This document shows, one piece after another, positions 3,737 to 46,704 of a stretch of DNA of 64,000 nucleotides. The notes beneath the pieces were generated by a model. It was not told where the DNA came from, searched no databases, and saw only the letters and a program-made list of their open reading frames with translations. Every line of letters begins with the position of its first letter. The stretch's first letter is position 1. The position numbers and the translations under genes are program-made. Source of the DNA: an uncultured Acetatifactor sp. (GTDB lineage Bacteria > Bacillota > Clostridia > Lachnospirales > Lachnospiraceae); assembly GCA_947627535.1 (NCBI GenBank), contig CANQWM010000013.1, positions 1 through 64,000 on the forward strand. Reading direction: 5' to 3'.

Positions 3737-3794
3737 TTGAACAAAATCGCTTCGCGATGGCCTGCCCAGGCTGTGGCGCAGCGATTTTGTTCAA
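3737..3794. repeat. Perfect 15-bp inverted repeat with GC-rich centre
   Basis: ttgaacaaaatcgct (3737-3751) and agcgattttgttcaa (3780-3794) with a 28-nt spacer containing gcctgcccaggc. Confidence 0.85.
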
Positions 3795-8722: not shown

Positions 8723-8754
8723 CTGCTGCCACCTTTCTGCTTTGATCTGCACTC

Positions 8755-8995
8755 TTGTTTTTTGTCTTGTTTTTCTTATCTCTGTCTTACTTTTGTCTTA
8801 TCTCTGCCGTATTCCTGTCTTATTCTTGTCTTATCCCTGCCTTATCTCTGTCTCATCTCTCTTATCTCTGTCTTGTCTCTGCCTTATCTCTGCCTTATCT
8901 CTGTCTTATCTTTGTCTTATCTTTGTCTCGTTTCTTATGCCTTATCTTGCTCCTATCTCTGTCCCATCTCTGCCTCATTTCTGTCTCATTTCTTT
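8755..8995. repeat. Degenerate ~11-bp tandem array (minus strand GACAGAGATAA-like)
   Basis: Repeated tcttatctctg / ccttatctctg on the + strand, directly upstream of the GH5 gene. Confidence 0.85.
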
Positions 8996-9063
8996 CCCGC
9001 TCCCGTTTTCTTTCCGTCCCGGGTATCCGCCCGGAATCCCCTGCCCGGCTTGCCTGCCCTTTC

Positions 9064-9275
9064 GCAGCCTGTCTGCATTTCATCCGACCCGAATCTCCCT
9101 GCCGCCCAGCGCTTTCGCAACCTGTCCGCGTTTCATCCGACCCGGACCTCTCCGCCGCCCTGCGCTTTCGCAGCCTGTCTGCGTTTCATCCGACCCGGAT
9201 CTCTCCGCTGCCCTGCCCTTCCGCAGCCTGTCCGCGTTTCATCCGATTCGGATCTCTCCGCCGCCCTGCGCTGCG
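9064..9275. repeat. 53-bp tandem repeat, four copies, last one covering the oxidoreductase 3' end
   Basis: gcagcct/gcaacct units start at 9064, 9117, 9170 and 9223, exactly 53 bp apart; each contains an ATCCG-NNN-CGGAT-type dyad. Confidence 0.85.
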
Positions 9276-10997: not shown

Positions 10998-11039
10998 TTT
11001 TACTCCGTTTCTGCGTTTTTCACTCCGCATTTCAGGTTT

Positions 11040-11235
11040 TGCTTTTCAGTTCAAGCTTTTCATTTCACATTTTTCGGTTCATGCTTTTCGGTTCACACTT
11101 TTCATTTCATGCTTTTCATTTCACGCTTTTCATTTCATGCTTTTCATTTCACGCTTTTCATTTCATGCTTTTCATTTCATGCTTTTCGGTTCACATTTTT
11201 CGGTTCACATTTTTCATTTCACGCTTTCCCTTCCG
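11040..11235. repeat. 14-bp tandem array (minus strand GAAAAGCATGAAAT)
   Basis: Repeated gcttttcatttcat / gcttttcatttcac on the + strand, with cggttcac variants at the edges. Confidence 0.9.
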
Positions 11236-11303
11236 GGTTTCGCTCCTTCAACCACGCCGTCTCCGGCGGCGCGAACGATCATTGGAAACTGCCCGGCCTC
11301 CAA

Positions 11304-13553: not shown

Positions 13554-13616
13554 CTTTTGCAACAGTTCAGCCTGCGCCATTCGCAAAGCCGCTCAGGCGC
13601 GCTATCCGGCGCTGCG
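13554..13616. repeat. Partial copy of the dispersed structured repeat at 45773-45936
   Basis: 63-nt ungapped alignment, 56 identities, to the reverse complement of 45874-45936 (aligned by hand). Confidence 0.85.
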
Positions 13617-44734: not shown

Positions 44735-45697
44735 TCATCCTGTCACAGTTTCATCCTTTTCATCCCTATTGCAATGATTACAAGAATTGCGGCAGTACGC
44801 ATCCGCCGCCATGGCCGCGTTGGCGCCGTCGGACACGGCGGTGACGATCTGCCGAATCGGCTTCTTCCGCACATCTCCCGCCGCAAAGAGACCGGGCATC
44901 TGTGTGGCACAGTCTTCTCCCGCCAGCACATAGCCTCCCTCGTCGCAAGCCGTCAGATCCCTTACCAGCTCTGTGCCCGGCCGGATTCCCACGGCGATAA
45001 AAAGGCCCGCCACCGGAAGATGGAACGTCTCGTTGGTCTTGAGATTTCTGATCCGCAGCCCTTCCACCGCATCCGTCCCGCAGATTTCCTCCACCACGTG
45101 ACTGTAGAGAATTTCCACGTTGGGCAGCGATTTCAGCTGTTCCTGCAAAACCGCCGCGCCCCGCAGTTCGTCCCGCCTGTGGATCAGATAAACCTTCTCA
45201 CAGGCGCGGGCGAGAAAGATCGCATCCTCCAGCGCGACATCCCCGCCGCCTGCCACCGCTACCGTCTTTCCCCGGAAAAACGCGCCGTCACAGGTAGCGC
45301 AGTAGGATACTCCCATGCCGGAAAGCTCTTCCTCCCCCGGCACTCCCAGATGGGCGTGGACGGCGCCTGTGGCAAGGATCACGGTCTTTGCCTCCAGCTC
45401 CTCCGTCTGCGTGCGCACCACCTTTACGCCGCCCCTGTCTTCTATGGCAAGGACCTCCGCTTCTTTAAATTCCACGCCCAGCTTGTCCGCATGCTGGCGG
45501 AACTGTACGCCCATATCGAATCCGTTTATGCCGGGCAGGCCGAGATAATTGTCCACTTCGTAAGTATTCAGCACCTGCCCGCCGCTCATGGAATTTTTTT
45601 CAAGCACCAGCAGATTCAGACCCGCTCTTTTTCCATACACGGCTGCCGAAAGCCCCGCGGGGCCGGAGCCAATAATAATCAGATCGTACATAAACAA
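44735..45697 (-). CDS. trxB: Thioredoxin reductase-like FAD/NAD(P) oxidoreductase
   Basis: IIGSGPAGLSAAVYGKRAG, SYCATCDGAFFRGKTVAVAGGGDVALEDA, GLFAAGDVR. Confidence 0.88.
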   Translation of the reverse strand: MFMYDLIIIGSGPAGLSAAVYGKRAGLNLLVLEKNSMSGGQVLNTYEVDNYLGLPGINGFDMGVQFRQHADKLGVEFKEAEVLAIEDRGGVKVVRTQTEELEAKTVILATGAVHAHLGVPGEEELSGMGVSYCATCDGAFFRGKTVAVAGGGDVALEDAIFLARACEKVYLIHRRDELRGAAVLQEQLKSLPNVEILYSHVVEEICGTDAVEGLRIRNLKTNETFHLPVAGLFIAVGIRPGTELVRDLTACDEGGYVLAGEDCATQMPGLFAAGDVRKKPIRQIVTAVSDGANAAMAADAYCRNSCNHCNRDEKDETVTG

Positions 45698-45772
45698 CCT
45701 CCTCTTTCCTTCTTATCAGTGTATCAGTTTCGGGGTGGAAAAGCAAGGCGGGAATGTGATATACTAGAGGAG

Positions 45773-45936
45773 AGTTCAGCCGGCAGTCATGTTGGGCGAA
45801 AAATTGTGCTCGCACAAATTTTTCGCCTAACATGGCTGTCGAGGGAGCGCCATTTCATGAGCAAAGGCAGGCGCGCAGCGCCGGACAGCGCGGCAGCGCG
45901 GCTTTACGAATGGCGCGGGCTGAACTGTTACAAAAG
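45773..45936. repeat. Dispersed structured repeat, predicted three-way junction
   Basis: Outer stem 45773-45781/45918-45926; hairpin 45782-45840 (~27 bp, 3 G-U wobbles, 1 bulge); second stem 45847-45855/45908-45916; partial copy at 13554-13616. Confidence 0.8.
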
Positions 45937-45972
45937 AACAGCAAAACGAATCCTGACAGAAAGGCACATTCC

Positions 45973-46704
45973 ATGACAGCTTCTTTTTTACCCGCCGCAC
46001 TGATCACCGGCGCCTCCCGGGGCATCGGACGCGCGGCCGCGGAGGTTTTCGCCGCCGCAGGCTACCGTCTGACGCTCACCTGCCAAAAGTCCACAGAAGA
46101 GCTGGAATCGCTGGCCAACGACCTGGCTTCCCGCTTTCGGATTCCCTGCCGCGCGGTCCGCTCCGACGCCGCAGACCCGGATTCCGTCTCGGAGCTCTTT
46201 GCGTCTTTGGACCGTCTGGACGTGCTGGTAAACAACGCCGGCATCTCCCATTTCGGCCTGCTCACGGAAATGACCGTGGAGGAATGGCGCTGGGTCATGG
46301 CGGTAAACCTGGATTCCTGCTTTTACGCCTGCCGGGCAGCCATCCCTCTGATGCTGAAAAACCACAGGGGCCGGATCGTCAATGTTTCCTCCGTCTGGGG
46401 CGCCCAGGGCGCTTCCATGGAGGTGGCCTACTCCGCTTCCAAGGGCGGGGTCAACGCCTTCACCAAAGCGCTGGCCAAAGAGCTGGCCCCCAGCAACATA
46501 CAGGTAAATGCCGTGGCCTGCGGCGTTATCGACACCGCCATGAACGCCCGTCTTTCCGCGTCGGAACGAAAAGCCCTGCAGGATGAGATCCCTGCGGACC
46601 GGTTCGGCTCCCCGCAGGAAGCCGCAGAACTGATCCTTCAGGTCGCTCAGGCTCCCGCCTATATGACCGGCCAGATCATCACCATGGACGGGGGCTGGTA
46701 CTGA
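45973..46704 (+). CDS. SDR family oxidoreductase (FabG-like)
   Basis: ALITGASRGIGRAAAEVF, VLVNNAGIS, YSASKGGVNAFTKALAKEL; start MTASFLPAALITG. Confidence 0.9.
   Translation: MTASFLPAALITGASRGIGRAAAEVFAAAGYRLTLTCQKSTEELESLANDLASRFRIPCRAVRSDAADPDSVSELFASLDRLDVLVNNAGISHFGLLTEMTVEEWRWVMAVNLDSCFYACRAAIPLMLKNHRGRIVNVSSVWGAQGASMEVAYSASKGGVNAFTKALAKELAPSNIQVNAVACGVIDTAMNARLSASERKALQDEIPADRFGSPQEAAELILQVAQAPAYMTGQIITMDGGWY

Follow-up and report, generated by a model that had tools for sequence, protein, structure and literature searches.

What is the folded repeat that separates two divergent genes in this uncultured Acetatifactor genome, and does it owe its copies to DNA mobility or to a function as RNA? 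The original prediction, drawn from the 64,000 nucleotides of the window (the whole stretch of DNA analysed here), described a structured dispersed repeat with a three-way junction that could be a MITE- or REPIN-like element or a multicopy ncRNA.

The locus and the extent of the element

A Pfam scan identified the neighbours as a thioredoxin-reductase-like gene (Pyr_redox_2) and a short-chain dehydrogenase (SDR) gene (PF00106), in agreement with the divergent trxB-like and SDR genes named beforehand. The features of the locus, together with a partial copy elsewhere in the window, are as follows.

44735..45697, minus strand: thioredoxin-reductase-like gene (Pyr_redox_2; Pfam scan)
45768..45931, plus strand (best-folding strand): full copy, 164 bp, of the probable MITE (R1 match, fold, boundaries from the duplications of other copies)
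45768..45781, plus strand: left terminal inverted repeat, here AGGAGAGTTCAGCC, consensus GTAACAGTTCAGCC, outer 5 bases decayed (sequence, alignment A1)
45782..45840, plus strand: arm 1, hairpin of ~27 bp with CTCG loop at 45809-45812, fast-changing yet paired (fold, pair counts)
45847..45916, plus strand: arm 2, with a GCGCC/GGCGC stem and a GCAAAG/CTTTAC stem (alignment, pair counts)
45857-45860 and 45908-45911, plus strand: conserved internal motif of arm 2, ATGA/GAAT (alignment, pair counts)
45870-45882 and 45888-45899, plus strand: two small hairpins of arm 2 (alignment, pair counts)
45918..45931, plus strand: right terminal inverted repeat, GGCTGAACTGTTAC; genomes G357 and G440 have exactly this sequence as an IS66-type end
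45973..46704, plus strand: short-chain dehydrogenase gene (PF00106; Pfam scan, ORF list)
13554..13616, minus strand: 5'-truncated copy, 89% identical to positions 110-172 of the query element, ending at the right terminal repeat

The element is 164 bp long, and its copy at 45768-45931 on the plus strand scores 162 bits with R1, the model derived from this family. We placed the boundaries there because other copies end in GTAAC...GTTAC and carry 8-bp duplications just outside; the earlier extent of 45773-45936 did hold the folded repeat, but its limits had to be moved to take in the whole element. The left outer end of the window copy is degraded to AGGAG, and no 8-bp duplication is visible at the flanks of this copy with its decayed left end. 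The SDR open reading frame as called (290 aa) begins at 45832, inside the element, and the PF00106 protein runs from 45973, bearing out the suspected spurious N-terminal extension; the true start is most likely the ATG at 45973, not 45832. A promoter-like site (TGGAAA-18-TATACT, extended TG) occupies 45736-45765 on the plus strand, directly upstream of the element; transcription from it could place the window copy in the 5' leader of the SDR gene.

The surrounding genome (G000; 2.85 Mb, 53 contigs) contains element-related DNA at 35 places, of which some 20 are full-length and 15 partial, so that the repeat is dispersed as proposed; some copies stand in tandem with a period of 171 bp (C40, C4). 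The partial copy expected at 13554-13616 was present as well, on the minus strand, and corresponds to the last third of the element. R1 matched 95 of the 138 genomes of the same genus (as defined by kinship labels), some of which carry at least 21 copies, but only 6 of 292 genomes of the class. Named contigs bearing the core pattern belong chiefly to uncultured Acetatifactor and other Lachnospiraceae and come largely from animal-gut sources. The element is thus short, without coding capacity, dispersed and multicopy, in the manner of a MITE. The window also contains pyrimidine-rich tandem repeats at 8730-9264 and 10998-11249 (periods of 11, 53 and 14 bp) and, at 3737-3794, a 28-bp near-perfect inverted repeat with a 2-nt gap, whose sequence is unrelated to the element.

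A covarying three-way fold and its relation to Clostridiales-1

The plus strand from 45760 to 45950 has a folding energy of -90.8 kcal/mol compared with -59.7 kcal/mol for shuffled sequence (z -8.1; none of 200 shuffles folded as stably), and the minus strand folds less stably, at -75. All parts of the predicted structure were found: a 9-bp outer stem, AGTTCAGCC/GGCTGAACT, which pairs 45773-45781 with 45918-45926, the hairpin of about 27 bp with its CTCG loop (arm 1), and the GC-rich second arm closed by GCGCC/GGCGC (arm 2). In an alignment of 58 full copies from the genus, both sides had changed in 36 of the 55 pairs and standard pairs occupied 90% of cells; compensatory cells numbered 371 (shuffles, mean 128; slid controls, 65-156), although these counts overstate independence and significance because the copies are related. 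The three-way fold is real.

The two arms behave differently. Arm 1 is highly variable and still largely paired across copies, whereas arm 2 is almost invariant around ATGAG...CGAAT, a motif that would form tandem G-A mismatches within a helix. The G-U-compatible mismatches of the long hairpin, which had initially hinted at RNA, hold family-wide: when arm 1 is read on the plus strand in 133 copies, its mismatches are G-U in 160 cases versus A-C in 51, and when copies are grouped by similar arm 1, the groups number 32 and 10, respectively. Copies lying between co-directional genes show no preferred orientation (27 versus 31), which makes transcription-linked mutation bias an unlikely cause of the G-U excess. 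The bias suggests that the plus strand is the folded form, probably as RNA.

No Rfam family matched the element in a scan at gathering cut-offs. In a permissive scan the nearest family was RF01699 (Clostridiales-1), which aligned over its full length to the window copy with 36.6 bits (E=1e-6; cut-off 48) and gave 42.2 bits with the best copy of the genome, likewise under the gathering cut-off. The statement that the element matches no RNA family has to be corrected in view of this end-to-end alignment, even though the score stays below the gathering threshold. MicroRNA matches in the same permissive scan were taken as hairpin artefacts. One copy from another genus (G172:C5) is recognised well by both models (R1, 64 bits; RF01699, 66 bits) and so bridges the two families, which, together with the full-length alignment, points to a common core architecture. 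As judged from these alignments, the element family and RF01699 look distantly related, the element not being a formal member of RF01699.

Both families share the outer stem, a long hairpin with a CUUG/CUCG-type loop, the ATGAG...CGAAT motif and an AG-hairpin-CGGA segment, and both are dispersed and multicopy. Specific to the element are a further small hairpin in arm 2, IS66-like ends and 8-bp duplications. In contrast, RF01699 copies have different ends, show no 8-bp duplication and start at the stop codons of same-strand genes: in most of 30 copies the 5' end lies within approximately 10 bases of such a stop codon, often supplying the stop itself, and the 3' ends never show this association (copies from L141-L171, in G052, G086, G146, G172, G239, G281 and G337). 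RF01699 therefore looks like a stop-codon-associated repeat. Clostridiales-1 is named in the main text of its source publication only in a table, which lists it as probably RNA and not cis-regulatory (Weinberg et al., 2010; PMC2864571). Within the collection of papers that we searched, nothing relevant turned up on IS66 MITEs, Lachnospiraceae MITEs or the function of Clostridiales-1.

Terminal repeats, target duplications and a candidate IS66 partner

Intact copies carry the 14-bp terminal inverted repeat GTAACAGTTCAGCC at both ends. We searched for target-site duplications around 136 copies from many genomes, 35 of which have both ends intact. Direct repeats of 8 bp with no more than one mismatch flank 22 of these 35 copies and are perfect in 13, against 0.35 expected from mispaired flanks; repeats of other lengths were not in excess at the same flanks, and the 8-bp duplication was also seen in an independent smaller set of copies. 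Such duplications are a signature of DNA transposition. The element is transposable DNA, and its mobility is well supported; the guess of a MITE gains from the duplications, from terminal inverted repeats shared with IS66 elements and from the lack of orientation preference. Clean empty sites were not seen among the shared loci read between G000 and its close relative G429, and in one distant ortholog pair (L325 versus L240) the element is absent from one member, without a duplication.

The alternative guess of a REPIN/REP-like element moved by a RAYT (Y1) transposase has become highly improbable. The element does resemble REPINs as a paired palindromic repeat dispersed between genes, multicopy and in places tandem, but the RAYT domain PF01797 has no match in this 99%-complete genome, whereas control genomes matched, and 8-bp target duplications are, to our knowledge, not expected of Y1 enzymes or REPINs.

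The duplications also bear on whether the element is primarily a functional ncRNA, a subfamily of Clostridiales-1 that became multicopy by chance and for which the IS66-like ends are a vehicle or incidental. Its copy number, insertion in either orientation and 8-bp duplications are transposon traits and, apart from the single consensus match just upstream, neither a shared promoter nor an intrinsic terminator was found for the window copy. On the other hand, the strong covariation of all helices, the invariant ATGAG/CGAAT motif, the strand specificity of the G-U excess, the kinship to RF01699 and the promoter-like site directly upstream of the window copy speak for a functional RNA. We consider it rather unlikely that RNA function is primary, and note that the ncRNA and MITE readings can be true together.

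A source of the ends was sought among the insertion sequences of the genus. Genome G006 carries a single-ORF IS66-family element (485-aa TnpC, PF03050) that ends in GTAACTATTCAG and is flanked at two sites by perfect 8-bp duplications. Searches of the genus with this TnpC and a second TnpC as queries revealed related elements whose ends read GTAACTGTTCAG, GTAACTATTCAG and GTTACAGTTCAGC. In G357 (L200) and G440 (L215) an IS66-family TnpC gene is followed, about 46 bp on, by exactly GGCTGAACTGTTAC; both contigs break inside the IS, and the exact end is read on one side only. G440 holds 10 copies of the small element, and G357, which bears the exact IS end, has no R1 match. In G356, an element of 1,831 bp whose tnpC is broken (L205) has GTTACAGTTCAGC at both ends. 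The larger IS66 elements of the genus (2.6-2.8 kb) were rejected as a source, as their ends read GTAAGCG or GTAAACG and not GTAAC..TTCAG. An autonomous copy in G000 itself was likewise rejected: the exact end matches checked there were copies of the element, fragments or lone ends.

With GTAA-type ends and an 8-bp duplication, the small element bears the marks of IS66 derivation. Single-ORF (tnpC only) IS66 elements share with it the GTAAC..TTCAG ends, the 8-bp duplications and, in G357 and G440, the exact 14-bp end beside TnpC; the small element differs in having no transposase gene, and its interior is unrelated save for the ends. An IS66-family transposase is thus a probable partner on sequence grounds. 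Complete elements carry near-identical ends; since no complete autonomous IS with exact ends on both sides was seen among the same-genus elements examined, mobilisation by TnpC is a step that we infer. IS66 transposase gave no match in G000, and a close TnpC was not found in most element-carrying genomes; assemblies of metagenome-derived genomes (MAGs) often lose insertion sequences. Because of this lack of a match, and because the window copy occupies the same place in a close relative, the copies in G000 look like an old population whose mobiliser has been lost.

We therefore favour, with reasonable confidence, an IS66-type MITE with a Clostridiales-1-like structured core. The element, having no gene of its own, would rely for its movement on an IS66-family DDE transposase supplied in trans (single-ORF TnpC type), which would recognise the GTAACAGTTCAGCC ends and make the 8-bp target duplications. 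Between the ends, the conserved folded core, putatively related to Clostridiales-1, would be kept as a plus-strand structure. It is tempting to speculate that the fold works in RNA form: it might, for instance, stabilise transcripts that read through it or direct their processing, or it might serve the element itself.

Replacement of arm 1 and tandem units

The close relative G429 has the window copy at the corresponding position, and the sequences differ at only a few points where they align. At other loci shared by G000 and G429, arm 1 differs in blocks that are mostly paired, while the flanks and arm 2 barely change. In one pair of orthologs (L013/L400), 7 pairs of arm 1 are altered at both positions and 1 at a single position; in another (L017/L383), the counts are 6 and 5, two of the 5 being unpaired. 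Hairpin breakage followed by repair from another copy is a plausible origin of these block changes.

Such changes raise the question of whether pairing in arm 1 reflects selection on RNA at all, or is instead maintained by a process at the DNA level, in which palindromes undergo template switching or gene conversion. Block replacement with pairing mostly kept (7 of the 8 changed pairs in L013/L400 being both-sided) would fit this explanation, as would the deletion of arm 1 in one member of the ortholog pair L022/L400 and the case of L402 (ortholog of L008), in which the arm of the second tandem unit resembles that of the first. However, it leaves unexplained the strand-specific G-U excess and accounts neither for the invariant mismatched ATGA/GAAT motif nor for covariation in hairpins of 4-5 bp, and no exact donor for the new L400 and L383 arms was present in the part of G429 read, the tandem unit of L402 being the only case of a likely donor. 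We give a DNA-level origin of the pairing clearly less than an even chance. A fuller form of the favoured IS66-type MITE, in which the element is a transposon-borne structured RNA with IS66-type ends, a plus-strand RNA core under selection and an arm 1 that diversifies rapidly within resident copies by an exchange that keeps self-complementarity, is offered only tentatively.

Arm 2 can also multiply by itself. Arm-2-only units with a period of ~99-104 bp form arrays after full copies (L014/L422, L070, L071, L057), and the number of units differs between close relatives (L014/L422). BOX elements of Streptococcus pneumoniae are modular small elements whose tandem internal modules vary in number, and the arrays of arm 2 beside full copies are reminiscent of them; the hosts differ, and the likeness is one of modular layout, with no sequence relation apparent.

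Altogether, these results assign relatives of an Rfam 'RNA' motif that has lacked an explanation to the mobile DNA of a major group of gut bacteria, and they name a likely transposase for the element. Near-identical relatives also provide a natural system for following concerted changes in hairpin arms, and annotators should be aware that such elements yield false ORF starts and multicopy 'ncRNA' calls.
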